From assembly GCA_021811105.1 (NCBI GenBank), contig JAJZPM010000045.1:1-32472 (forward strand): a DNA stretch of 32,472 nucleotides. Reading direction: 5' to 3'. Shown piece by piece: positions 13,511 through 31,445 of the stretch; within the stretch, counting starts at the first letter, position 1, and the number at the start of each line of letters is the position of its first letter. This DNA comes from Nitrospirota bacterium. Lineage in GTDB: Bacteria > Nitrospirota > Thermodesulfovibrionia > Thermodesulfovibrionales > UBA6898. The notes beneath the pieces were generated by a model, which was not told where the DNA came from, ran no database searches, and saw only the letters and a list, made by a program, of their open reading frames with translations. The position numbers were made by a program, and so were the translations under genes.

Positions 13511-13586
<76 letters not shown>

Positions 13587-13600
13587 TATTTTTCAAGGAC

Positions 13601-14695
13601 TTATACGCTTGCAACTTTCTCTTCACCCGGCACTGTAGCCAAATTGTAGCCACTCATGCTTCGATCATAGATTTCCACCGCCTTGACCTTGTGACTGGGG
13701 GCGAGGTGTGCATACCTTAGAGTCATCTTAACATCGGCATGACCCAAAAGCTCTTTCACTGTTACCAGGTCTATACCGGCCATGACTAAGTGAGACGCGA
13801 AGGTATGGCGAAGGTCGTGAAAATGGAAGTCCTGAATTTTGGCCCTTCGCAGTGCCGTCGCAAAACTCTTCTTAACTTCCTGATACGGCTTGCCGCTTGC
13901 CGGATCGAAAAAAACATGCTGCACATCCAGCCTTCTCGGCAAACTCTGCAGGGTAGCTCTAAGGGTCGAGTTAATCGGGATTTCCCGTCTCTCACCGTTC
14001 TTTGTATGCGAGAGCAGAATGAAACCATGTTTGAGGTCAACATGAGCGTCCCACCTTAACCCCAAAATTTCCTGCCTTCTCATGCCTGTGTTAAGAGCGG
14101 TGATTACGATAGGTCTTAAATGAGGATCACAAGCTGCAATCAATTCCGAGCACTCTTCCTTGGAAAGATACCGGAGGCGTTTGTTGTTCTCCTTGAGCAT
14201 TTTTACTTTCGGGATATTGGCCCTGTCGATCATTTTCCAGTCAGCAGCCTTCGTAAACATGTGGGCAATAACAGCAATAAAGCGGTTGATGGTGGCCGGT
14301 TTGTTCGGAATATTATGAAGTTTACCTTCTACAATTTTTTGCTGTTTTCCCCGTTTCAGTTTTTCTGACTGCAATTTCTCAAGCTCACGCACGCCTATCA
14401 TCGACAAGCTGTAATCCCTAAAACGCTCTTTGAGTTGACTGATTATATAGATCTTGAATTTGGATCTATATCTGCCTTGCATCCAATTTTCATACTCTTC
14501 AGCCAATTCCAGAAAAGGGGGATCGTCTTTTGTCTCCTGTTCCTTGAACCATCTGCCCTCGATGATGTCTGTCTTAGCCTTGGAGTAAATGTTTTCTGCC
14601 AGTCTTTTATTGGCAGTTCCTGTTGACCGCTGTATGCGGCCTTCGCTTGTACGAATTCTGAACCAGTAGATCTTACCTCTCAGGTAAAGCCCCAT
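13601..14695 (-). CDS. int: Tyrosine recombinase (island integrase)
   Basis: This 364-residue integrase would catalyse site-specific insertion and excision of the island at the neighbouring tRNA-Ala. The N-terminal part (MGLYLRGKIYWFRI...) is an AP2/Arm-like DNA-binding region, followed by a SAM-like core-binding domain. The catalytic domain shows the first Arg in NTGMRRQEILGLRW, then HDLRHTFASH (His and second Arg), LLGHADVKMTLRYAHL (third His and nucleophilic Tyr). The ATG at 14695 is chosen because AAAGGAGG lies 8 nt upstream; an earlier in-frame start would overlap the excisionase gene. It follows that gene by 1 nt and appears complete. Confidence 0.93.
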   Translation of the reverse strand: MGLYLRGKIYWFRIRTSEGRIQRSTGTANKRLAENIYSKAKTDIIEGRWFKEQETKDDPPFLELAEEYENWMQGRYRSKFKIYIISQLKERFRDYSLSMIGVRELEKLQSEKLKRGKQQKIVEGKLHNIPNKPATINRFIAVIAHMFTKAADWKMIDRANIPKVKMLKENNKRLRYLSKEECSELIAACDPHLRPIVITALNTGMRRQEILGLRWDAHVDLKHGFILLSHTKNGERREIPINSTLRATLQSLPRRLDVQHVFFDPASGKPYQEVKKSFATALRRAKIQDFHFHDLRHTFASHLVMAGIDLVTVKELLGHADVKMTLRYAHLAPSHKVKAVEIYDRSMSGYNLATVPGEEKVASV

Positions 14696-14696
14696 T

Positions 14697-14927
14697 TTAT
14701 TTGCCTCCTTTCCTGGGGCTACTGGTAACGGTTTTGGCAAATGAATTATAACCCGATGTGGCGGACCTGTGGCAAGCCCCGATCCACCCTAACATTTCAT
14801 CCAGGTCAAACCTCAGCAAACCATTGACCTTGTAATGGGGAATTAGTCCCTCTTCTGCCCATTGGTAGACTGTTTTCGGGCTCGCGCCAATGATTTGTGC
14901 AACCTCCTTTGCAGTCATTAGCTTCAT
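14697..14927 (-). CDS. Excisionase-like helix-turn-helix protein (MerR/AlpA type)
   Basis: The 76-residue protein opens with MTAKEVAQIIGASPKTVYQWAEEGLIPHYKVNGLLRFDLDEMLGWI, the standard winged helix of the excisionase/HTH_17 family. The last ~25 residues are polar and basic. Directly upstream of and nearly touching the integrase gene, it most likely sets the direction of recombination by bending att DNA, or represses the operon. Its stop codon is 1 nt from the int start, so the two should be translated from one message. It lies 9 bp downstream of parB. Confidence 0.85.
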   Translation of the reverse strand: MKLMTAKEVAQIIGASPKTVYQWAEEGLIPHYKVNGLLRFDLDEMLGWIGACHRSATSGYNSFAKTVTSSPRKGGK

Positions 14928-18407: not shown

Positions 18408-18520
18408 CAACAGATTTGTGGACAAAGACCGCAATCGTCCCTGGTTGAGTCTGGGTGCGGGAGATAACGGAGTTCACCATAATGAAATGTTAGAAAGAAA
18501 CCTGGATCGGGAGGAGGGGA

Positions 18521-18552
18521 GGTAGAAAACCGCCAAATGGCGGAAATCTACC
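18521..18552. repeat. Palindromic hairpin repeat, copy 1
   Basis: The outer stem GGTAGA/TCTACC and inner stem CCGCC/GGCGG flank an AAAT loop, with a short mismatch of A residues between them. The core reads CGCCAAATGGCG. Confidence 0.75.
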
Positions 18553-18623
18553 CCCTTGTATGCCTACGGAAGTATTATCGGGCTTCACCATAATGAAGAA
18601 TGAACCGGGAGCGGATCAGAGAA

Positions 18624-18661
18624 GGGGGTAGAAAAGTGCCAAATGGCATTTTTCTACCCCC
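18624..18661. repeat. Palindromic hairpin repeat, copy 2
   Basis: The 17-bp arms (GGGGGTAGAAAAGTGCC and its near-perfect complement, one G-U pair) close on an AAAT loop. The core reads TGCCAAATGGCA. Confidence 0.8.
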
Positions 18662-18789
18662 CTCTTTACGCCTTTGCCCTCCCTCGCTTCCATTTCATTC
18701 TGTCCTGAAACCTGTCCTTTGCTTGACAAAAAAATCGTAAGTTCAATCTGTTATCTTACTGTTGAGTAACAGCCGCAATCGTCCCACAC

Positions 18790-18825
18790 GGGGTAGAAAA
18801 AGGCCAAATGGCCCTTTTCTACCCC
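18790..18825. repeat. Palindromic hairpin repeat, copy 3
   Basis: The 16-nt arms (GGGGTAGAAAAAGGCC and complement, one non-Watson-Crick position) close on AAAT. The core reads GGCCAAATGGCC. Confidence 0.8.
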
Positions 18826-18875
18826 CCCGCCATGCCTATTTGAGGATATGTTTCGCATGAATTGTTTCACTATAT

Positions 18876-19204
18876 ATGTCAGTTTCACCATATGATAAAC
18901 CTTCAGATCTTCTTAGTCCCGGACATCAAAGAACAGAGCTTCCACCGGATGAGGCTATCCGTGCGATCCACTACCGGTTTTCTACCTGGCTGGAAGAGAG
19001 GCGGAGAGCGGCGGTGGGGTCTTCAGGGAGCTTGCTGGGTGGGTTAGTAGAGCCACCTCCGCGGGGGGGTAAAGAAATCATAAAATGCTGGTTTCTTTAC
19101 CCCTTCGTCAATGAGGTAATAACTGCCACATTTGGTGGAACCCATACACCCGCAATAGAACCACCGTTTCCAACCATCCCGGCGATATCTCCCGCTTCGC
19201 TTTC
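18876..19204 (+). CDS. Possible truncated hypothetical gene
   Basis: An ATG at 18876 opens a frame whose first ~75 residues (SPYDKPSDLLSPGHQ, EAIRAIHYRFSTWLEERRRAA) look like genuine protein. After about residue 90 it runs into sequence that matches a HicA remnant in another frame. It then continues antisense through the AbiEii gene to a stop at 19361. I read it as the 5' part of a gene cut off by rearrangement; the end given here is approximate. A fourth hairpin lies inside it. No known family is recognised and it may not be expressed. Confidence 0.3.
19066..19103. repeat. Diverged hairpin related to the upstream repeats, copy 4
   Basis: Arms GGGGTAAAGAAATCA and TGGTTTCTTTACCCC (14 of 15 pair) enclose an 8-nt loop. 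The outer stem resembles copies 1-3 (GGGGTAGAAA), but the GCCAAATGGC core is absent. Confidence 0.5.
19145..19195 (+). pseudogene. HicA toxin remnant (short copy)
   Basis: In the frame starting CGC at 19151 the translation is RNRTTVSNHPGDIS, which matches the TVPNHPGDI segment near the C-terminus of HicA-type mRNA interferases. It breaks off after ~15 residues. The DNA is nearly identical over ~45 bp to the longer remnant at 21641 onward. Confidence 0.6.
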
Positions 19205-19237
19205 AGCAAGCCTCGGCCAAAGCGCCCGGATTCAAAA
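19202..19237. repeat. Cassette-boundary repeat, copy A
   Basis: This copy carries TTCAGCAAGCCTCGGCCA and then AGCGCCCGGATTCAAAA. It overlaps the stop codon of the AbiEii-like gene (19232-19234). Related copies are at 21921-21961 and 22888-22920. Confidence 0.7.
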
Positions 19238-20659
19238 CTTTGTAGTCACATACATGCCGGTGCGGCCGGGGCAAGGATATCCTTGCTTATTCTTATGCTG
19301 GTTCAGGGATGAGTCCATTGCTTTATGCGTAAACTGTCTTCCGCAGACGATGCACCTATAAACATACTTAGGGCCATAGCCGGATGATGTGCTCCTTCTG
19401 CTTGTTGATTTGATCCGTTGAGGCCGTAGGCTGCCAATCCCCTCCGTTCGCATTGTTGTAAGTGGAGCAGAAAGCGGACCTACAGCGCTAAGCTCTACTG
19501 CATATTTAGGCGTAAATGGGATCTTTGTCACCTCGGCGCCTTGAATACGGTCGACTCTGTATGATCTATCTGCCCTGGTATCGTGCTTCACAGCATACAG
19601 AAGAAGATTGCCGTCGCGCGTGCGCCTCAGGGAATAAGGCTCGATGAGTCGTCTGCTCCCCTGGTAAGCCAAATTAACGCACAATCTATTTGCTGCTGCA
19701 TATCGTATTATCTCCATTGGCGCTGCAGTGTGCCATGCCGTTGCCATTACCGGCGGTTTCCATGTTGTATCGATTGCCTGCCCTCCTGCTGATATTGAAG
19801 GAGGGGCTTCTTTTTCAACTGCTCGGTACAGCCATTCAAAAACCTCCGGCAGCTCCTGCCAGAACTGATCAAAAGGCGGCAAAACAGGCACCTGATGGCC
19901 CAGCATGTTTTCCCACTCAGATACCAGTTCCGCCCGCTCCGGTTTGCTCTCAAGCATCTCCATGGTAGGAACCGATAAGCCTTTGAATGCACACTTTGCT
20001 TCGAGGATGCTCAGAATTTTCTCGCGGCCCTGCCTCGTGCTGTCATGCCTGTAGAGATGGATCACGTCATAGAGGTCTCTCGGCCTTAGCTGTTCGCCCA
20101 ACGCCCTGATCTTTTCTGCAAAGACCTCTTCAAAGCAATAGCAGGGAACATGAATCCCTCCTGCAGGGGTGTCGGAGTATGGATGGGATACTTCGCGACT
20201 GACAGGATCGGACACTAATACCTCATCGTCTGTGAGGTCCAGTTTGATGCGGGGAAGATCGCCGCCCGGCCGCAGCGGTCCCCTATAAGCAATCCTTCCC
20301 TGAACGGATATCTTGCCTCTTGGATTTGTGTAAACATCAAACCTGATCAGATCGCGCGGAATCTCGATACCTGATGCATCATAAACCCAATCAGCTATTT
20401 CCCTGAACGCATTAATCAGAAAGTCTTGATCCTGATGCTTAGCATCTGTCAGGGTAAAGTCCAGGTCTTCAGAGAATCGGTAGGTTTCAAAATAACATTT
20501 CTTGAGGCATGTACCTCCTTTGAATGCCCAGCTTGCGCTGAGATCTTCGTGCTGCGAAATTCCTGCCAGCAGCCAGCCAAGCATATAGTCTTTCTCGATG
20601 ACATTTATAGCTAGGCCGAACTCCCTTGAGAAATCCATTATCTCCTGTCGGTCTATCAC
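19232..20659 (-). CDS. AbiEii-like nucleotidyltransferase toxin fused to a WYL-like domain and zinc-knuckle tail
   Basis: Residues 1-285 form the AbiEii/type IV toxin nucleotidyltransferase. The GGT at 48-50, SEDLDF with the paired Asp at 65 and 67, and RDLYDV at 194-199 are its hallmarks. AbiEii toxins transfer nucleotides to RNA or nucleotide acceptors and block growth, usually on phage infection. Unusually, residues ~313-390 (EIIRYAAANRLCVNLAY, RLIEPYSLRR, SYRVDRIQGAEV) read as a WYL-type ligand-sensing domain. The tail has CIVC (436-439), His454 and Cys463, a possible zinc knuckle. Start is GTG 20659, 1 nt after the antitoxin stop. At 475 residues it is well above the usual ~300. Confidence 0.8.
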   Translation of the reverse strand: MIDRQEIMDFSREFGLAINVIEKDYMLGWLLAGISQHEDLSASWAFKGGTCLKKCYFETYRFSEDLDFTLTDAKHQDQDFLINAFREIADWVYDASGIEIPRDLIRFDVYTNPRGKISVQGRIAYRGPLRPGGDLPRIKLDLTDDEVLVSDPVSREVSHPYSDTPAGGIHVPCYCFEEVFAEKIRALGEQLRPRDLYDVIHLYRHDSTRQGREKILSILEAKCAFKGLSVPTMEMLESKPERAELVSEWENMLGHQVPVLPPFDQFWQELPEVFEWLYRAVEKEAPPSISAGGQAIDTTWKPPVMATAWHTAAPMEIIRYAAANRLCVNLAYQGSRRLIEPYSLRRTRDGNLLLYAVKHDTRADRSYRVDRIQGAEVTKIPFTPKYAVELSAVGPLSAPLTTMRTEGIGSLRPQRIKSTSRRSTSSGYGPKYVYRCIVCGRQFTHKAMDSSLNQHKNKQGYPCPGRTGMYVTTKF

Positions 20660-20660
20660 A

Positions 20661-21467
20661 TCAATTCTCCTTTATCCAGCTTTGCGGAATCCAAAGCCTC
20701 CAGCGCGTTACCAATCTGTCCGCAGGAAGCGAAGGATCAAGCCTCACATTTCCTTTTGTAAGACTGGCTCTGCAGTCGTTTATGGCTGCCTCCTGGTCCG
20801 GCGCATAACGTTCCAGCAGGAACCCAAGACGCTTAAACACAGCGCCATTGTCCAGCCGTCTGGCATAATCTATCAGGAGTTGAATATTCTTGTTCTCTGA
20901 CTTCAGGTAGCTCAGGAATATGTCCGCTGTTGGCCGTATCCCTCCGCCAAGCTTCGGATCAGCCAGCATGTCGAGGATCGTGCGGGTTGGATCAGAGACC
21001 GACACCTTAACCTGTCCTTTCCACACCGGCTTTGTCCCAAAGAGCGCCTTCTCCGATATTGTGCGCAGCATGAAACTTGTACCCTTGATCACAGGGGCAC
21101 GGTCTCTTGGCTTCTGAGTTGTCAGGACAACAACAGTACGGAAAATCTGCTCTGTAAGGTCCCAATATTCGGCAGCGCCCCATCCTCCGATATAGCAGGG
21201 CGAGAATAACCGGTCGGCGATAATCCAGGGATCTTCAAGGGGAACATCAGACGTGCGGGACTCAAGCGGCACTCGTACATACAAGCCCCGGCGCACGCGG
21301 GAAATCCATCCCTTCTTTGCCCAGCGGGAAAGCATCTTCGCTGCGTCGGGCGAAGAGACGTTCAGGATGTCGGCAGCATCCTTGACCGAGATCGTGCCTT
21401 TCGTCTCCCGGAAGATTTCCGAGAGCCTTTCCCTGTCTTTCTTTCCTATGCCCGCCAAGGTTTTCAT
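20661..21467 (-). CDS. AbiEi-family winged-helix antitoxin
   Basis: The 268-residue protein begins with a winged helix (residues ~10-70: TISVKDAADILNVSSPDAAKMLSRWAKKGWISRVRRGLYV), the antitoxin_4-like domain of AbiEi. The C-terminal half (PWIIADRLFSPCYIGGWGAAEYWDLTEQ, KVSVSDPTRTILDML) is the second antitoxin domain. In characterised AbiE systems AbiEi neutralises AbiEii without stable binding and represses its own promoter cooperatively at inverted repeats. Here a palindrome (21496-21510) lies just upstream of the start. The toxin gene starts 1 nt after this gene ends, so the two are translationally coupled. It appears intact. Confidence 0.85.
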   Translation of the reverse strand: MKTLAGIGKKDRERLSEIFRETKGTISVKDAADILNVSSPDAAKMLSRWAKKGWISRVRRGLYVRVPLESRTSDVPLEDPWIIADRLFSPCYIGGWGAAEYWDLTEQIFRTVVVLTTQKPRDRAPVIKGTSFMLRTISEKALFGTKPVWKGQVKVSVSDPTRTILDMLADPKLGGGIRPTADIFLSYLKSENKNIQLLIDYARRLDNGAVFKRLGFLLERYAPDQEAAINDCRASLTKGNVRLDPSLPADRLVTRWRLWIPQSWIKEN

Positions 21468-21920: not shown

Positions 21921-21961
21921 TTCAGCAAGCCTCGGCCAAGCGCCGGGGAAATGATTTCAAA
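21921..21961. repeat. Cassette-boundary repeat, copy B
   Basis: The copy begins TTCAGCAAGCCTCGGCCA and continues AGCGCCGGGG, with a short insertion before TTTCAAA. It lies between the HicA remnant and the metallophosphoesterase gene. Confidence 0.7.
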
Positions 21962-22887: not shown

Positions 22888-22920
22888 TGCAAGCCTCGGC
22901 CAAGCGCCCGGGATTCAAAA
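22888..22920. repeat. Cassette-boundary repeat, copy C
   Basis: GCAAGCCTCGGCCAAGCG is followed by CCCGGGATTCAAAA. It ends 2 bp before the stop codon of the ImmA/IrrE gene (22923-22925), much as copy A meets the stop of AbiEii. Confidence 0.7.
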
Positions 22921-22922
22921 TG

Positions 22923-23771
22923 TCACTTTCTGAACTTCATGTAGCCGTCGAGCTCGCCATAATCGTCAGGGTCGTCATCGTAGACTTCTTCATCGTCTTC
23001 CTCGTGGTCGACGAACAAGAATGTCAGGACATGGTTATACGTACTCGATCCGATGGACATTTCCATGACCTTCGATGAATTTCTGAACTTTGAATCACCA
23101 GTCCAGGCATTCGAAGGGACTTCATTAAATGAATCCGGGATAGCAGTCCCTTTGAAGAAATCGTATGCAAACGAATCTTTATGAACAGGGCTCCCAGGCC
23201 TTACGTCGAGGAAATACTTGAACTCTTCTCCAATATGGAACCAGTTTATTCTTGAATTCTCCGAGTATACCATTGCATATTCAGGCTTAAAGGTAATACA
23301 TCTCATGCCCGTCGCTGTCAACGATGTACCGAATTCTGCGCAGAGGGCATCAAGCAGGCTCTTGCTCAGGTCCTTGTACTGGACACGTTTTTTGAAATGC
23401 TCTTCAGGCATCAACAGTTCAGATGCAAACCAGTTTGCTTCAAACTCCCTATTGTCAGCCTTCCCAAAACTGGAAATGTCTTTATCAGAACACTGAAACG
23501 ACGTCCGCTCAGGAGTGATATGTCCCGGAATTGTAAAGTGCCCAAGCTCGTGAGCGACTGTGAATTTCTTTCTACTTGGTTCCCGGAGAGCCTTCTTAAC
23601 TGAAATCAACGCCTCTCCGTCAACTACCAAGAGCATTCCCGTGTAACCCTCGGCATCGTCCTCGCTGACCTCAATGCCCTTCTGAATTGCTATCTCTACC
23701 GGGTCAACAGGAATCTTGGTGTAATTTATCTCTTTGCGGAGTTGTGCTGCATATGAGGCTGAACCTTTCAT
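22923..23771 (-). CDS. ImmA/IrrE-family metallopeptidase
   Basis: The 282-residue protein has the zinc-peptidase motif HELGH (His74, Glu75, His78) and downstream the family segment REFEANWFASELLMP, whose Glu completes the zinc site. In ICEBs1 and Deinococcus relatives such peptidases cleave an XRE-type repressor after a stress or DNA-damage signal. The partner XRE gene is directly upstream and overlaps by 4 nt, so the pair is translationally coupled. The C-terminus after residue ~255 is a very acidic tail (HEEDDEEVYDDDPDD), which may aid protein contacts. The catalytic residues are present, so it should be active. The likely substrate is the neighbouring repressor. Confidence 0.88.
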   Translation of the reverse strand: MKGSASYAAQLRKEINYTKIPVDPVEIAIQKGIEVSEDDAEGYTGMLLVVDGEALISVKKALREPSRKKFTVAHELGHFTIPGHITPERTSFQCSDKDISSFGKADNREFEANWFASELLMPEEHFKKRVQYKDLSKSLLDALCAEFGTSLTATGMRCITFKPEYAMVYSENSRINWFHIGEEFKYFLDVRPGSPVHKDSFAYDFFKGTAIPDSFNEVPSNAWTGDSKFRNSSKVMEMSIGSSTYNHVLTFLFVDHEEDDEEVYDDDPDDYGELDGYMKFRK

Positions 23772-24121
23772 TTCTTGGGCGCCTTTTTGCTGGCCTTGTC
23801 TTTTAGATACGCTATATGGTCCATTATGGTGGCCCGGTCTTTCAGGGTAAACCCTTTAAAATCTCTGAATGCCATAGAAACTTCCTTGTCAATGAGAATG
23901 TCTTTTTCCTTGGAAGCTCCAAGAAGGTAGTCAGTTGTCACACCGAGGGCCTTCGCGAGTTTAAGCAGGGTCTCTGTTGAAGGTACTTTCTCTCCCTTTT
24001 CATACTGGTTTACAGCAGATGGCGAAACATCAATAAGCTCGGCAAGGCTTTTCTGGCTCAGGCCGGCAGCATCCCGGCGCTCTTTTATACGTTGACCGAT
24101 TAGCTTTCCTTCGATCTCCAC
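23768..24121 (-). CDS. XRE-family repressor (ImmR-like)
   Basis: This 117-residue protein has an HTH_3 domain near its N-terminus (IGQRIKERRDAAGLSQKSLAELIDVSPSAVNQYEKGEKVPSTETLLKLAKALGVTTDYLLG), then a short helical tail with lysines. GTG at 24121 is preferred because AAAGGAGG lies 4-5 nt upstream; the open frame continues to 24229, but that part overlaps the operator. It is the probable repressor of both itself and the divergent ubiquitin-like operon, since a perfect inverted repeat overlaps the opposing promoter. The overlapping ImmA/IrrE gene probably encodes its inactivating protease. This follows a well known switch design, but the wiring here is inferred. Confidence 0.88.
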   Translation of the reverse strand: MEIEGKLIGQRIKERRDAAGLSQKSLAELIDVSPSAVNQYEKGEKVPSTETLLKLAKALGVTTDYLLGASKEKDILIDKEVSMAFRDFKGFTLKDRATIMDHIAYLKDKASKKAPKK

Positions 24122-24210
24122 AGGTCCTCCTTTCTTAATGGCCTTTTTCTTATTATATTGCTCAGCCTGTTTCAGGTCAATTAAAAAATAACCTGTAGTT
24201 AACTTTTCTC

Positions 24211-24239
24211 TTGACATTAACTTAACCATAGGTTAAGAT
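24211..24239 (+). promoter_or_regulatory. Promoter of the ubiquitin-like operon with embedded operator
   Basis: TTGACA (24211-24216) and TAAGAT (24234-24239) are spaced by exactly 17 bp. The perfect inverted repeat CTTAACC-ATA-GGTTAAG (24221-24237) fills the spacer and reaches into the -10 box. Further TTAACC or GTTAA half-sites lie near 24190-24202 and 24243-24250. A bound repressor would block polymerase. AGGAGG at 24261-24266 serves the first gene. Confidence 0.75.
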
Positions 24240-24274
24240 GTTATTAACCTAATGCAGCAAAGGAGGATTCGAAG

Positions 24275-24550
24275 ATGTCAGACGAAAAGAAGGAACACAA
24301 CGAGAAGAAGCCCGAGGAGCATCCTGTCTTCCACTACACAGTGGACGACGAGCCGCAAACGACAAGTGAGCACGTCCTTACACCCAAAGACATTCTGGAG
24401 AAAGCCGACTTGAACCCTGCCACATACTATCTCGTCCAGATCAGGGGCAACGAACAGGTGCCCTACAAGGACAAATACGATGAGCAGATTCACATGCACC
24501 AGCATATGACCTTCATTTCTGTATTCATCGGCGATACCCCGGTCTCGTGA
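24275..24550 (+). CDS. Single-domain ubiquitin-like protein (Multi_ubiq type)
   Basis: The 91-residue product has a charged N-terminal tail (residues 1-17) and then one beta-grasp domain of the bacterial multiubiquitin type: VFHYTVDDEPQTTSEHVLT, PKDILEKADLNPATYYLVQI, then IHMHQHMTFISVFIG. It is probably the modifier or signal protein of the operon. Many relatives have several tandem domains; this one has a single copy. The C-terminus ends GDTPVS, so there is no diglycine, and no further residues are available to be trimmed to one. AGGAGG lies 8 nt upstream of the ATG. The stop codon overlaps the start of the next gene (TGATG). Confidence 0.78.
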   Translation: MSDEKKEHNEKKPEEHPVFHYTVDDEPQTTSEHVLTPKDILEKADLNPATYYLVQIRGNEQVPYKDKYDEQIHMHQHMTFISVFIGDTPVS

Positions 24551-24909
24551 TGGCAAAGGCAGATTTCATCAGTCAACTGACGGAGATTGGGTACACAGTC
24601 GAAGAGCTTGGAGACGACAAAATTGCCTTTCCTTATGAAATACCGGCAGGGCGCTTTAAAGGTCAAACGATAAAGCTCGGCTTTAACGCACCTGCCGATT
24701 TCCCTGTGTCGTCACCTTCAGGCCCGCACCTGACACCTCATTTGCTTCCGATGAACGCAGGAGCTCCGGCACATCCCGCACGAGTGGCCGATAGCAATTT
24801 TGGTCCCGAATGGCAATACTGGAGCAGGCCCTTTCTCAAATGGGCGGAAACAAACAAGACAGCTAAAGATTATATGCGGTACATCCGCCATCTCTTCGAG
24901 ACGCAATGA
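24550..24909 (+). CDS. E2-fold (UBC-like) protein, Prok-E2_E type, lacking cysteine
   Basis: The 119-residue protein resembles the prokaryotic E2 group found beside multiubiquitin and JAB-E1 genes. It has an N-terminal helix, a strand region (KIAFPYEIPAGRFKGQTIKLGF), the segment FPVSSPSGPHLTPHLLP, a histidine pair region (APAHPARVADSNF), then GPEWQYWSRPFLKWAET and the final helix KDYMRYIRHLF. In classical E2s a catalytic Cys follows the HPN-like motif. Here the complete protein contains no cysteine, so it cannot form a ubiquitin thioester. It may act as a scaffold, like eukaryotic UEV proteins, or use another chemistry. The ATG overlaps the Ubl stop by 1 nt; its stop overlaps the next ATG by 4 nt. 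Confidence 0.72.
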   Translation: MAKADFISQLTEIGYTVEELGDDKIAFPYEIPAGRFKGQTIKLGFNAPADFPVSSPSGPHLTPHLLPMNAGAPAHPARVADSNFGPEWQYWSRPFLKWAETNKTAKDYMRYIRHLFETQ

Positions 24910-26423
24910 AATACAGCGTAGCCCTTACAGAAGATATCCACAAGGCCGCCTATGAGCATCTTATCCGTTTAGATCGGCAAGAGGACCTCTGCTTTGCCCT
25001 GTGGTTTCCAAGCCAGGGGCATACCCGGAAGACAGCCTTGATCTGGAAGCTCATACTTCCCGGCAGTGGCGACCGCAAAGTCCATGGCAATGCGAGCTTC
25101 ACCGGCCGGTATTTTGAACGCGCTATAGGTGAGGCCGTGAAAGCCGGCGGTGGTCTGGCTTTAATGCACAGTCACCCCGGCCCTGGGTGGCAGGGCATGA
25201 GTTCAGATGATATCAGCGCCGAAAGAAATCATGCCGCGGCAACGAAGGGGGCAACCGGCTTACCGATTGTCGGCCTGACAATAGGGACGGATGGCGCATG
25301 GAGTGCCCGGTTCTGGGAAAAAACCAAGCCGAGGACATACGAGCGCTTCTGGTGTGAAAGTGTAAGGGTTGTCGGCGACGCTCTGAATATCACATTCATG
25401 GATGAGCTCATGCCTGTGCCAAAGTTCAGGAAGAACTTGGATCGGACTATATCGGCTTGGGGTCATAAGAAACAGGCGGTCCTTTCCCGCCTGAAAATAG
25501 GGATAATCGGCTTAGGAAGCGTAGGAAGCATTATATCCGAAGCGCTTGCACGCATGGGAGTGTCCCATGTAAAACTGATGGATTTTGACACTATCGAGTA
25601 TGTGAATCTCGACAGAACCCTGCATGCCTATGAAGATGACTCGACAACGGGACGGGCAAAAGTAGCAGCCGCGGCTAACGCTTTCCGAAAGAGCGCCACG
25701 TCCGAAAAGGTCACGGTGGAACTACTTGAATGGAGCGTCACCGAAGAGCAAGGCTTTCGGGATGCCCTCGACTGCGATATCTTATTCAGCTGCGTTGATA
25801 GGCCATGGCCTCGCGCGGCTTTGAACTTGATCGCATATGCTCACTTAGTCCCTGTTGTTGATGGCGGCATAGCTATCAAAATCAAGTCTAACGGTACGAT
25901 GAGAAGTGCTGACTGGAAATCGCATATTGTCGGACCGGGCAGGAAATGTCTGGAGTGCCTTGGTCAATATGACTCCGGTCTAGTCTCAGCAGACCGTGAG
26001 GGATATTTCGACGATCCCACGTACATACAGAATCTTCCCATGGACCACTCTATAAAGAGAAATGAGAATGTCTTTGCATTCAGCCTAAGCACAGCTTCTT
26101 TCCATGTTCTGCAAATGCTTTCCATGATCGTCGCTCCCTCAGGATTGGCGAATGTAGGGGCTCAGAATTACCACTTTGTTACAGGCGCCCTCGATGTCGA
26201 TCGCGACAAGTGTAAGGAATCCTGTCTCTATCCTTCCTTTACCGCCAAAGGCGACAGCACAGGGATAGTTGTGACCGGAATACATGCCAAGGCAGAAGAA
26301 GCCAGGGCTCTCAGATTAAAGTCGGGTACAGCTTCTCAAACATGGAGAGATAGAATTGTTGTACTTTATCATGCAATGATGGGCACGGTAAGGCGAGCGT
26401 TTTTGAAAATCTTGAAAACTTGA
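24906..26423 (+). CDS. JAB deubiquitinase-E1 (ThiF-like) fusion protein
   Basis: Residues 1-160 are a JAB/JAMM metalloprotease domain with Glu26 (QEDLCFALW), His88, His90 (HSHPGPGWQGMS), Ser99 and Asp102. Residues ~190-450 are an E1/ThiF adenylating domain: GLGSVGS (202-208), Asp226 in LMDFDTIEYVNLDR, Asn234 to Arg237, Lys252 and Asp298 in CVDRPWPR. Zinc ligands are probably Cys348/Cys351 (CLEC) and Cys436/Cys440 (CKESC). The protein could adenylate the Ubl C-terminus and also remove it from targets. A catalytic Cys of E1 type is not obvious; Cys296 is a candidate by position only. It is the last gene of the coupled operon and ends 55 bp before a convergent gene. Confidence 0.88.
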   Translation: MKYSVALTEDIHKAAYEHLIRLDRQEDLCFALWFPSQGHTRKTALIWKLILPGSGDRKVHGNASFTGRYFERAIGEAVKAGGGLALMHSHPGPGWQGMSSDDISAERNHAAATKGATGLPIVGLTIGTDGAWSARFWEKTKPRTYERFWCESVRVVGDALNITFMDELMPVPKFRKNLDRTISAWGHKKQAVLSRLKIGIIGLGSVGSIISEALARMGVSHVKLMDFDTIEYVNLDRTLHAYEDDSTTGRAKVAAAANAFRKSATSEKVTVELLEWSVTEEQGFRDALDCDILFSCVDRPWPRAALNLIAYAHLVPVVDGGIAIKIKSNGTMRSADWKSHIVGPGRKCLECLGQYDSGLVSADREGYFDDPTYIQNLPMDHSIKRNENVFAFSLSTASFHVLQMLSMIVAPSGLANVGAQNYHFVTGALDVDRDKCKESCLYPSFTAKGDSTGIVVTGIHAKAEEARALRLKSGTASQTWRDRIVVLYHAMMGTVRRAFLKILKT

Positions 26424-26478: not shown

Positions 26479-27258
26479 TTATTTCGTTGGCGGGTAGAAT
26501 ACGCCTAAGATCATAAAATTCTGTCTGAACCTCTTCATATTTCCCACAAAGAAGTAGGTATCATTCTTCATGGAACAGAGATTATCCAGCCAGCGCTCTT
26601 TGATCTTCTCGAGCAGCACCGCCTCATCCTTATAGGTGAACCTCCACGTTCTATACGCCTGTCCGATCTCCCAGTCAATAATGGGCAGGTCATGACCGAG
26701 ACAGTCGTGTCTCCCCTGACAGAAGAACTGATATCTAAAATCAAAGGGTATCTCCTCAATAGCCTGTTTGCTCTTGTTGTAAAAGCTCAGTTGAGCGTAA
26801 CAGACATCTCTCTCCGTCTTATTTTGAAGCTTCACTTTCTTATGCGTGAAGGCGATTCTATGAGGTTTGAACATGCCGAGAGACAAACCGGACTTCTCGC
26901 TGCCTTTCAGGAGGTCGCAGTATGAAGGGGCAAGCGTAGGAAGAACGATCTTCTTTCTCTTGTTCCATCCGTCTTTCGTTCTTGTATCGTACCACTCCAG
27001 CACTTTAATGCTATCGGCGTCTACCTTGAAACTCTCAGACCGCGTATCATCCGGGGCTTTGTGTGCCCTAATTTCGATGATGCTATATTTCCTGAATTTC
27101 TTTTCATCCTCCAGGTCCCTATATTGAATGGGATAAAGGCGTATCCATTTTTCTGTGGTAAGATCAATGCCGGCGACACAAACAGTCTCTCCATACTTCT
27201 TGCTTGGGTTGGGATAGGCTTTGACGGTGACGAGAACTTTTTTAAGTTCCCATAGCAT
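26479..27258 (-). CDS. Predicted dual OB-fold protein, DUF488 partner
   Basis: The 259-residue protein opens with KKVLVTVKAYPNPSKKYGETVCVAGID, then WIRLYPIQYRDLEDEKKFRKY. From memory, this is the start of a family annotated as dual OB-domain proteins, often next to DUF488 genes in defence or DNA-processing islands. Here too the DUF488 gene is directly upstream. Its TGA overlaps this ATG (27258-27256), so the two are coupled. The C-terminal half (PFDFRYQFFCQGRHDCLGHDLPIIDWEIGQAYR) contains two close cysteines and histidines that could bind metal. OB folds suggest nucleic-acid binding. An upstream in-frame start at 27330 would overlap DUF488 more deeply and is rejected. Confidence 0.65.
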   Translation of the reverse strand: MLWELKKVLVTVKAYPNPSKKYGETVCVAGIDLTTEKWIRLYPIQYRDLEDEKKFRKYSIIEIRAHKAPDDTRSESFKVDADSIKVLEWYDTRTKDGWNKRKKIVLPTLAPSYCDLLKGSEKSGLSLGMFKPHRIAFTHKKVKLQNKTERDVCYAQLSFYNKSKQAIEEIPFDFRYQFFCQGRHDCLGHDLPIIDWEIGQAYRTWRFTYKDEAVLLEKIKERWLDNLCSMKNDTYFFVGNMKRFRQNFMILGVFYPPTK

Positions 27259-27704
27259 CAAATATGTGTGATTACCAGGCCGTTGCCGTCGATCGCTTTG
27301 ACCTTCTTGGCAACGATAAGGCGATGACATTTAAGTGGATCGCGCTCCATGCACATGAAGCAACTTACATCCTGTGCTATGATCTCCCTGTACATCTCCT
27401 CCATGTCGCCGTTAAGGGTTTCGAGATATGCCCTGTATCCATCGAAAAAGGAATCGTAGTCCTTATCCCTATGGAGCTTCTCTCTCAATTCTTTTGGGCT
27501 GCCGAGCTTGCCGACGTGAACATAGTTTATCCCTGCGGACCGAAGGTGCTCGCTGATGCGTGTCTTTGAGAAGTCACGTTTTCTACTATAGGGTATCTCA
27601 CGGACATCGATGAGTGTGCTAATTCCGTGCTTTTTCAGTCTGCCCAAAAACTCATCTATTGTCCGCTCTTCATAGCCGATAGTAAATACCGTTATAGGCT
27701 TCAC
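27258..27704 (-). CDS. DUF488 family protein
   Basis: The 148-residue protein shows the DUF488 pattern: VFTIGYEERTIDEFLGRLKKHGISTLIDVREIPYSRK near the start and FMCMERDPLKCHR near the end. The CMERDPLKCHR segment is the conserved core of the family and probably holds its reactive cysteine and ligands. The biochemical role is not established. GTG at 27704 is chosen because CGGAGG lies 6 nt upstream and it puts the protein start at the usual place; an ATG at 27746 would add 14 residues without a ribosome site. It is coupled to the dual OB gene and starts ~50 bp after a truncated ATPase tail. Confidence 0.8.
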   Translation of the reverse strand: MKPITVFTIGYEERTIDEFLGRLKKHGISTLIDVREIPYSRKRDFSKTRISEHLRSAGINYVHVGKLGSPKELREKLHRDKDYDSFFDGYRAYLETLNGDMEEMYREIIAQDVSCFMCMERDPLKCHRLIVAKKVKAIDGNGLVITHI

Positions 27705-27753
27705 TGAATGCCTCCGCACCTTCGGTGTTTTGCCTAAGTATAGCATATTTGCT

Positions 27754-29044: not shown

Positions 29045-29916
29045 CTAACGTTCCCGCCCGCCCTCGTCAATTCCCTTTCTCAGTTTCTCAATCTGCCGCA
29101 ATATTTCATCGAACTTGTCATTATAGCTGAGCGAGCCTCTGATCATATCTGTGACCAATCTGTATTGAGACTGCTCCTCTGTTTCCGCCCCCAAAATTGC
29201 TTTGATAGCACTCAACGTCTCGGGATCAGCGATCTTCGCCATGTCCCGGCCAAGCAGTCTGATGCCGGCATGTCTGGTATTAAAATCCTCTTCCTTAAGC
29301 AGGTCTTGCTCTTTATCGTATAGTCTCTCAAAGTTTCCGGCCTCCTCGTATTTTTGCATGATCAGCAAGAGGTCCTCCGCGTCTTTCTTCCTTTCAGGAT
29401 ATTTTTCCCTCCACGAGATGATCTTCATGAGCGCCAGCCCCGGCAGGGTCGGCAATTTAATATCGAGTTCAGGGTCTGTGCTCAGTCTGACAGTGATGGA
29501 GTATTCATAAGCCTCTTTAAAGCCGACCATGCTCATGAACATCTCATGTTCCGGAGGCCAGGCGATCCTCCGGTTCTCACCGGCAATAGGTCCGAATGGT
29601 ACGATATCGATAAGAACGGAATCGAAACGAAGGCGTTGAGCTTCTCTTTCGTCAGGGATAAACTTGCCCGTGGCCTTTAATGTTTCTCTCAGCTTGCTGA
29701 ACTGTTCCCAACTGGCAACCTCTACTCAGAGGTCAATATCCGTGGTCATCCTGGGTGGCTCTATTCCGTAGCAGTATTTCAGTATAAAGTCTCTTGCCGA
29801 GGCGCCGACAATAAAGAAGGAAATCCCGAGAGAATCGGCGGATATCTTGACAGCCGAAAGGCATCGACTGTCTGCCGGTCAATCTTCCCTGACAAGTCGA
29901 ACAATATGTTGCTCAT
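29045..29916 (-). pseudogene. Broken AbiEii-like nucleotidyltransferase toxin gene
   Basis: The original gene can be rebuilt from two frames. It starts at ATG 29916 (MSNILFDLSGKIDRQTVDAF), shifts frame near 29850 by loss of one base, and continues with AVKISADSLGISFFIVGASARDF and RMTTDIDL. It then meets an in-frame TGA (29726-29728) directly after the catalytic DID motif. The rest (VEVASWEQF, then DSVLIDIVPFG, then LDIKLPTLPGLALMKIISWREKY.RKKDAEDLLLI) is intact to 29045. Length and motifs fit the nucleotidyl transferase AbiEii/type IV toxin family. The start overlaps the upstream antitoxin gene by 38 bp. Two lesions make a functional product unlikely; an internal ATG at 29542 would give only the C-terminal domain. 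Confidence 0.85.
29726..29728 (-). other. Premature TGA stop in the toxin gene
   Basis: The codon follows the sequence for TTDIDL, immediately after the catalytic Asp pair, and precedes VEVASWEQF in the same frame. A single base change would restore a sense codon. Confidence 0.85.
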
Positions 29917-30928
29917 AGACCATCTTTGCTGTTTCGAGATTGCGCTGATTCCCTGTTGCCAGAAGGTCGGCATACACAAGGACTGGGTGGACCAGGTCGT
30001 CATGCTGTTGATCCTCTGCAGGCTTCCAGAAGCGTTCGAGGATTTCAACGTCTCCCGTATTGTCCATTTTCAGTCTGTTGTCGAGAAGCAACTGATTGAG
30101 ATGCTGAGCATCCGCGTAGATCGTGATCAGCTGGGGTTTCAGATATTGAGTCAGTCTTGCGGCCGCTATCTCGCCGCCCCACTGGGCCTTTTGCGGGTCG
30201 AGCCTCTTCTGCTGCCACCAATCATGTTGACCTTTGTAGCGGCCCAGGAGCTGCTTTAGTCTCAACTGCTCAGGATATGCTGTCACCCAGCGTTGCAAGA
30301 GAGTTTCTTTCTGCGCCAGTTTCAGACCTCTCTTACCCATGTCAATAAGAAAGCCCAGTTCCTTTAGTTCCTTCATGGTCCAGTCAACGGTCCCAAGAGC
30401 AAGACCCGTAGCGGCCGCGATCTCCCGGTAGGTTTTGTTTTCAAAACCGGGATTGCATAAAAAGTAATAAATCATTTTAAGCCCGGCAGCCTTGAAGGCC
30501 CTCTTAACAGGGATCTGTCCGACAGTTTCCGGCAACCTGTTGCCCTTTACAAAAATATAGACAGGCGGCTGGTTAATAAAGGCATTGCCGGCAGTATCAA
30601 TGAATTCAATGCCGTCCTCACGTAACTGTTCGGCCATCTGGGGGTTCACGTATTTTGCGATGAGCAGCAGTGGGTACTGTAGTCCCTCCCTGTGCAGAAG
30701 CAGCAAGAGCCTTTGGGCTTTTGTGACCGTGGTCTTTATTCCGGCATAGTACTTCAACTCCTTGCCGTGTATCACCATCCGTATCATCCGGTCGGGCTGA
30801 AACCCAGCCGTATAGGCAGGCCCCAGCTCTAACGTCTCGATCTCCGTCTGCGCCGGGGCGGTCTTCTTGAATGCCTCTACAGCATGCCGGAAGATTTCCT
30901 CTTCGATATCAATCTTGGGTCTGTCCAT
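29879..30928 (-). CDS. AbiEi-family antitoxin/regulator (type IV TA)
   Basis: The 349-residue protein has the layout of large AbiEi antitoxins. The central segment TKAQRLLLLLHREGLQYPLLLIAKYVNPQMAEQLREDGIEFIDTAGNAFIN is characteristic, and residues ~165-240 form a winged helix (YREIAAATGLALGTVDWTMKELKELGFL). It should repress its own promoter and neutralise the downstream toxin. ATG 30928 (MDRPKIDIEEEI) is preferred over 30994, since the intervening bases hold a perfect palindrome that fits an operator. The gene is intact although its toxin partner is broken, so it may be a solitary regulator or protect against other AbiEii toxins. It overlaps the toxin pseudogene by 38 bp. Confidence 0.8.
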   Translation of the reverse strand: MDRPKIDIEEEIFRHAVEAFKKTAPAQTEIETLELGPAYTAGFQPDRMIRMVIHGKELKYYAGIKTTVTKAQRLLLLLHREGLQYPLLLIAKYVNPQMAEQLREDGIEFIDTAGNAFINQPPVYIFVKGNRLPETVGQIPVKRAFKAAGLKMIYYFLCNPGFENKTYREIAAATGLALGTVDWTMKELKELGFLIDMGKRGLKLAQKETLLQRWVTAYPEQLRLKQLLGRYKGQHDWWQQKRLDPQKAQWGGEIAAARLTQYLKPQLITIYADAQHLNQLLLDNRLKMDNTGDVEILERFWKPAEDQQHDDLVHPVLVYADLLATGNQRNLETAKMVYEQHIVRLVRED

Positions 30929-30948
30929 AGCTTTGTTCACTTTATTAT

Positions 30949-30971
30949 TATGTTCATTTAGTATGAACATA
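30949..30971. promoter_or_regulatory. Operator-like palindrome upstream of the second abiEi
   Basis: TATGTTCAT-TTAGT-ATGAACATA is a perfect 9-5-9 inverted repeat beginning 21 bp upstream of the ATG. Single TGTTCA/TGAAC half-sites flank it on both sides. This suits cooperative binding by AbiEi as known from other AbiE systems. Confidence 0.7.
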
Positions 30972-31445
30972 CCTGAAATATGAACTAAAGTCAAGTTAGG
31001 AAAATGTTACAACGTAGTAGTGCGCGGAGTTTAAAGGATATTCTGGTCTTGGAAACATGATCTTAGGTCGTCGGCTTTGTGGCAGACAAAATGCCATGTT
31101 CATAATTACCTGGTGTTCATTATTGCTGAACATCAGCTAATTATGAAGTCGATTCGGGGTACTGAAAAGTATCGCAGGTTTCAATTTCTTTGCGGCAGTT
31201 CCTTGTGAATAGGTTTACGTTCTTTAGGTAGACGGTCAAAGTAAGCTTTCCCGGACAGTTGCAAAGTAGAGCACTGATTTCTCAGAAGTCCACAGGAACA
31301 AGGATGATAAAAATATAACAGAGTACTACAATCGGAAATCGGCAAGACGTTTCAAAAATCAATAGGCAACTCTGCCCCGATAAAGATAAAGTTCACCGCA
31401 CGGAATAAGTTAACAAAGTCAACGGGCGACAAATTTTATCAATAG
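30972..31445. other. Intergenic region with a long inverted repeat
   Basis: About 470 bp without a supported gene. It contains an imperfect 21-bp inverted repeat (31099-31147, listed separately). The part from 31148 to 31445 is A/T-richer than its neighbours, and I see no motif in it beyond scattered stops in all frames. Confidence 0.5.
31099..31147. repeat. 21-bp imperfect inverted repeat with TGTTCA half-sites
   Basis: The left arm starts TTCATAATTACC and ends GTGTTCA; the right arm is its complement with two mismatches, around a 7-nt loop (TTATTGC). The inner ends TGTTCA and TGAACA are the same half-sites as in the abiEi operator 130 bp away. Confidence 0.7.

Follow-up and report, generated by a model that had tools for sequence, protein, structure and literature searches.

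A compact gene set in a Nitrospirota bacterium, encoding a ubiquitin-like protein (Ubl), an E2-fold protein and a JAB-E1 fusion, raises the question of which conjugation system it belongs to, and of how such a system would work with the residues that it has. A first-pass annotation had recognised the set. Three features go beyond what it described: an E2-fold protein without cysteine, a Ubl without Gly-Gly, and a flanking HTH/M78 regulator.

A three-gene operon of the Bub family

The window (the whole stretch of DNA analysed, 32,472 nt) carries the three genes on its plus strand. A BubA-like Ubl gene at 24275-24550 (91 aa, a single β-grasp domain, C-terminus ...IGDTPVS-COOH) is preceded by the ribosome-binding site AAGGAGG at 24260-24266 (plus strand), as read from the sequence. 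It is followed by a BubB-like E2-fold gene at 24550-24909 (119 aa, zero Cys), and by a BubCD-like JAB-E1 gene at 24906-26423 (505 aa), with a JAB/JAMM peptidase at about aa 1-160 and a ThiF/E1 adenylation domain at about aa 175-450. The ORFs bear out the operon as first drawn, being co-directional with overlaps of 1 nt (TGATG) and 4 nt (ATGA).

Relatives were searched for using a five-sequence alignment as the query; the window E1 by itself retrieved none in a genome scan. About 88 loci of the same clade were sampled from many phyla, comprising 80 genome loci and plasmid loci. Since the sampling used two E1 peptide patterns on one collection plus plasmids, the frequencies given here are valid for this sample only. 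Iterated Ubl and E2 profiles ran together across the natural fusions and were therefore split by gene position. The order Ubl-E2-E1 recurred in nearly all of the roughly 88 fetched loci, across many phyla, with Ubl and E2 fused in eight. This recurrence establishes the three-gene operon as real, far beyond chance, and supplies the conserved association across genomes on which the first-pass reading had been made to depend.

The JAB-E1 protein is homologous to the BubCD fusion, its best solved relative being Citrobacter BubCD (9ea4, E 3e-20, aa 6-325), and gave a ThiF match of 95 bits in Pfam. Among 89 relatives, the JAMM ligands E26, H88, H90 and D102 are kept in 89, 89, 89 and 88, respectively. 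The residues of the E1 nucleotide site (GxGSVG, D226/D228, R237, K252 and D298) are intact and near-invariant in the same 89, in agreement with the earlier statement that both sets are intact. For the E2-fold protein, a profile of 67 relatives matched Citrobacter BubB (9eae_C, E 6e-5), as did hhalign (8e-6), with the WSR motif aligned in both. Its AlphaFold model (pLDDT 93) has BubB as the best structural match (Z 10.4), followed by E2 and UEV proteins (Z 8-9). The fold is thus that of a BubB homologue without a catalytic cysteine, as in Bub and type 6e. The Ubl is predicted to be of the Multi_ubiq/BubA type that Bub and type 6e require: the top PDB matches of its AlphaFold model (pLDDT 84) are the multi-ubiquitin proteins 8u38 and 9d59 and BubA 9ea8, and Pfam Multi_ubiq (PF14452) was matched by 10 of 33 Ubl relatives. 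The placement of the first two genes in Ubl and E2 folds, which the first-pass annotation had left to profile searches, therefore stands, but not through Pfam: the window Ubl had no match there, PF14452 included, and is unnamed by Pfam, PADLOC and NCBIfam, while the E2-fold protein, at 24.2 bits, fell just short of the cut-off of 25.

With an E1 resembling BubCD, an E2 resembling BubB, a Ubl resembling multi-ubiquitin proteins and BubA, and the gene set of type 6e, the operon is therefore almost certainly a member of the Bub (bacterial ubiquitination-like) family. It corresponds to type 6e of Iyer, Burroughs and Aravind (2006; PMC1779556), described as one to three Ubl domains, a Cys-less E2 fold and a JAB-E1; the attribution of the gene set to these authors was correct. 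The same annotation had set it apart from Bub as a group of less established biochemistry, and here the record needs correcting, as Citrobacter BubCD, BubB and BubA are its closest relatives of solved structure: the operon is Bub, and no separate uncharacterised set is involved. It is a coherent Bub operon, of a known kind and a notable variant. In an E1 tree made by a quick method, the 88 rows of its clade separate from nine Gly-tailed Bub operons with SH-aLRT support of 100, the haloarchaeal row L009 having a long branch and an unsure placement. The operon belongs to a distinct glycine-less Bub clade.

An invariant serine and a tail without glycine

To our knowledge, ubiquitin-like activation is held to depend almost universally on a C-terminal glycine, and both this glycine and the catalytic cysteines are at issue here. 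No cysteine is conserved among the E2 relatives, and 31 of 73 lack cysteine altogether. In the E1, the only clade-conserved cysteines are a Zn-type set (348/351/436/440) and C296 of the FSCVD motif. A transfer cysteine was sought in the E1 and rejected, no conserved candidate being present besides these. The first-pass verdict of "probably functional", based on the intact catalytic residues of the JAB-E1, cannot with a Cys-less E2 refer to a classical thioester cascade.

The E2-fold protein has a serine instead. Ser92 (codon 24823-24825), in the WSR motif, is invariant in 67 of 67 relatives (15-54% identity) and again in 73 of 73 in a second alignment. WSR is also present in the natural fusions and in every one of the nine Gly-tailed Bub E2s examined, and is shared with BubB. 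In the model, Ser92 lies after the last strand and before the last helix, a position that would be the one where E2s carry the catalytic cysteine; hhalign against human UBE2D2 aligned the DFPxxPP stretch only. On these grounds Ser92 is, on balance, the favoured acyl acceptor, and the invariant Ser92-Arg93 could instead be structural. The E2-fold protein might then be a catalytically dead RWD-like scaffold, with the Ubl passing directly from the acyl-adenylate to the target by E1-only chemistry. The E2 domain of type 6e was called inactive because it lacks cysteine (Iyer et al. 2006; PMC1779556), the E1 has no conserved transfer cysteine, and the presence of the E2 in nearly every operon fits a scaffold as well. 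We nevertheless consider this doubtful, since a single serine is invariant in every E2 despite a mean column identity of 28%, and is common to BubB of the Gly-tailed clade.

The second departure is the Ubl tail. Unlike the Gly-tailed Bub type (TEG/NNG), the window Ubl ends in TPVS. As read from predicted ORFs, the tail is [VT][SA] in 70 of 79 unfused clade Ubls, and GG in none of the 79. Val-Ser is followed by 2-4 additional residues in the Ubls of L019, L028, L038 and L057, and VS or VA is retained at the Ubl-E2 junction in the eight natural fusions. Gly-tailed Ubls reach their terminus or E2 junction at TEG, TDG, HNG or NNG, with glycine at the equivalent position in all nine examined. In a Citrobacter freundii homologue this glycine is residue 229, the last one of the solved BubA 155-229 construct. 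Gly-tailed and Ser/Ala-tailed Ubls stop at the same place, so the terminal residue has changed while its position has stayed, and conjugation through the terminal serine or alanine is slightly favoured by this comparison of tails.

Trimming by the JAB domain to an upstream residue, for example the G in TGPTPVS, would restore conventional glycine chemistry and make the Val-Ser/Ala tail a cleavage signal. The JAB domain is intact, and many tails have a G a few residues upstream. This reading is nonetheless unlikely, as a subgroup ending in APVA or ADVA has no glycine there, and as most unfused Ubls stop exactly at the serine or alanine, with extra residues or fusions starting right after it. A sulfur-carrier or small-molecule pathway of the ThiS/MoaD kind, in place of protein conjugation, would suit an E1 of the ThiF/MoeB superfamily with Zn cysteines. 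Sulfur carriers, however, require a C-terminal Gly-Gly thiocarboxylate, whereas the tail here is Ser/Ala; the operon has no rhodanese or cofactor gene and does have JAB and E2-fold partners, which makes such a pathway very improbable. A toxin-antitoxin or otherwise unrelated cluster resembling ubiquitin enzymes by chance, to which the HigA-antitoxin annotation of some upstream regulators might point, is already contradicted by homology, all three proteins having solved-structure relatives and an order conserved across many phyla.

A tag ending in serine or alanine, together with an E2 that has an invariant serine in place of cysteine, suggests that the chemistry of this operon is probably unusual. 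In the scheme that we favour, acyl transfer through Ser92, the JAB domain would trim residues beyond Val-Ser where Ubls carry them. The E1 domain would adenylate the carboxylate of the C-terminal serine or alanine. The acyl group would then be held on Ser92 of the E2-fold protein, in an oxyester, before reaching the target. The JAB domain would later remove the tag. The route through Ser92 is proposed because neither the E1 nor the E2 has a conserved catalytic cysteine. The biochemistry of Bub was published in 2025-26, and a Bub biochemistry paper reportedly describes non-cysteine chemistry. The Ser/Ala-terminated Ubl and the invariant E2 serine are the part that deserves specialist attention: glycine replaced by serine or alanine beside an active-looking E1 and JAB would reveal to what extent E1 chemistry is able to drift, and the operon offers a small three-protein system for testing serine-based transfer.

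A CapH/CapP-type regulator and the host island

Divergent from the operon, on the minus strand, lie a gene for a CapH-like HTH repressor (23768-24121, 117 aa from the likely GTG at 24121; PADLOC capH, E 3e-19, 68 bits) and, overlapping it by 4 nt, a gene for a CapP-like M78 (ImmA/IrrE) metallopeptidase (22923-23771, 282 aa, HExxH intact; PADLOC capP, E 4e-56, aa 8-254, 188 bits; Pfam M78). An HTH repressor and an HExxH M78 protease thus stand divergently beside the operon, as in a CapH/CapP module. The first-pass annotation had taken the neighbours for toxin-antitoxin genes, and the adjacent pair is instead CapH/CapP-like; a toxin-antitoxin identity was ruled out by the capH and capP profiles and the conserved divergent position. 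The capH profile match begins at aa 42 of a longer ORF (ATG 24229), and the start is probably GTG 24121, with a strong SD (GAAAGGAGG) just upstream, which leaves a 153-nt intergenic gap to the bub operon.

A consensus scan of this region gave a candidate capH-capP promoter, TTGACC-17-TATAAT (11/12), at 24152-24180 on the minus strand, and a candidate bub promoter, TTGACA-17-TAAGAT (10/12), at 24211-24239 on the plus strand. The spacer and part of the -10 of the latter are spanned by a candidate CapH operator at 24221-24237, the perfect palindrome CTTAACC-ATA-GGTTAAG (CTTAACCATAGGTTAAG), which is the sole match in the window at up to 2 mismatches (0.06 expected). A second, overlapping palindrome, TAGGTTAA-7-TTAACCTA, with a third half-site, lies at 24229-24251; among 100 shuffles of the region upstream, none reached it. 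In the other clade operons, upstream palindromes are only modestly enriched (p<=0.05 in 18 of 86, by mononucleotide shuffles).

When the 2.5 kb on either side of the operon was scanned with an M78 profile partly trained on these same loci, an HExxH M78 protein appeared upstream in 67 of 83 loci (divergent in 56) and downstream in 1 of 80. In the closest relative, L011, the place of CapH/CapP is taken by a LexA-type S24 repressor (L011:5675-6277, S24 peptidase, divergent to the operon), and a C5 DNA methylase gene adjoins it. CapW or CapH plus CapP occurs in 219 of 544 Bub operons, and control of Bub by CapH/CapP has already been reported (PMC13373217). CapHP-type regulation of the operon is therefore very probable. 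The strong M78/CapP-type link and the LexA-type substitute point to DNA damage as the signal that these systems stand ready to answer.

In resting cells, the palindromes at the bub promoter would be occupied by CapH. DNA damage, whether caused by phage or otherwise, would yield ssDNA, whereupon CapP would cleave CapH and the operon would be expressed. CBASS-linked CapH/CapP are known to undergo such ssDNA-activated CapH cleavage and derepression (cited in PMC13373217); the same paper notes no demonstrated protection by Bub against phage to date. DNA-damage-induced Ubl conjugation is the mechanism that we consider best and fairly likely, with a chemistry that we infer. The fuller picture, a widespread clade that has dispensed with the C-terminal glycine and both catalytic cysteines, adenylates its Ubl at serine or alanine, forms an oxyester directly on the E2 serine and is under DNA-damage control, is put forward tentatively.

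The operon is carried on an island at tRNA-Ala(ggc), with AbiEi/AbiEii, a metallophosphoesterase and a PADLOC PDC-M19 pair as neighbours, in keeping with the integrase-bearing island with defence genes of the first pass. Its left end is the 47-nt 3' part of tRNA-Ala(ggc) (13540-13586, plus strand), repeated exactly on contig C86 of the same genome (C86:60704-60750), where there is no tRNA; the repeats are likely attL and attR. The tRNA and the adjoining integrase gene together occupy 13511-14740, with the tyrosine integrase of the island at 13601-14740 on the minus strand (Pfam Phage_integrase, E 4e-33). An AbiEii-type nucleotidyltransferase with a C-terminal WYL domain (19232-20659) precedes AbiEi (20661-21467). 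Near-identical repeats of 25-32 nt (GCAAGCCTCGGCCAAGCGCCCGGGATTCAAAA) at 19206-19237, 21925-21949 and 22889-22920 bracket the AbiE pair and the gene for the metallophosphoesterase, an arrangement reminiscent of exchangeable cassettes. A region with no assigned gene, 18519-19103, holds four palindromic repeats of 38 nt (GGGGTAGAAAA..GCCAAATGGC..TTTTCTACCCC). Directly downstream of the bub operon and convergent with it is the candidate pair PDC-M19B/M19A (26479-27746; a dual-OB protein and DUF488), and at 29879-30994 is an AbiEi_2-type protein of 371 aa with a RepL-like winged-helix region, for which no obvious AbiEii partner was seen.

Among 100 related genomes, one other had anything like a full E1 (29% identity), and the E2 was found in none of 60. 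This sporadic occurrence suggests that the bub operon was probably acquired horizontally. No relatives were found in phage records or viral contigs. On a Celeribacter plasmid (L105:2619-3890), an IS256 transposase splits the E2 from the E1 gene of a Gly-tailed Bub operon.

Relation to known systems

CBASS Cap2/Cap3 resembles the operon in the homology of its E1 domain (PADLOC E1-E2 models, E ~1e-13) and in CapH/CapP-type control. In Cap2, E2 and E1 form one fused protein that acts on a substrate other than a Ubl, whereas the E2 here is separate. No CD-NTase and no effector was found among the operon genes or scanned neighbours, unlike in type II CBASS. Bil (BilABCD) likewise combines a Ubl, E1, E2 and JAB in one defence-type operon, and the Ubl fold matches 8u38, titled Ubl-BilA in its structure entry. 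Bil relies on cysteine chemistry and keeps E1 and JAB on separate proteins; the operon, with its JAB-E1 fusion and an E2 devoid of cysteine, lacks the separate E1, Cys E2 and separate JAB of Bil. Type 6e shares this gene set, with a case of a solo Ubl and with Ubl-E2 fusions among its members, and usually adds a fourth, metal-binding protein that this operon lacks; a Ser/Ala tail, a conserved serine and a CapHP link go unmentioned in the 2006 text on 6e (PMC1779556).

A DUF6527 gene (PF20137), the fourth Bub gene, follows in most Gly-tailed Bub operons examined; it had no match in the whole genome of the window and, by phmmer, none in the fetched loci of the clade, the only match being in Gly-tailed L010. 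A conserved fourth gene downstream was sought in the clade and not found. The clade also differs from Gly-tailed Bub in its separate E1 branch, its Ubl ending in [VT][SA], often with one Ubl domain, and its mostly unfused Ubl and E2. The four Zn-type cysteines kept in the clade E1 are absent from Citrobacter BubCD, though two CxxC pairs occur in the E1 of some other Gly-tailed Bub operons. Citrobacter Bub (BubA/BubB/BubCD; PDB 9ea4, 9ea5, 9ea8, 9eae, 9eav; 9d59) has homologous Ubl, E2-fold and JAB-E1 proteins in the same order, and shares with the operon the WSR serine, the Cys-less E2, the JAB-E1 fusion and the CapH/CapP-type regulators known for Bub (PMC13373217).
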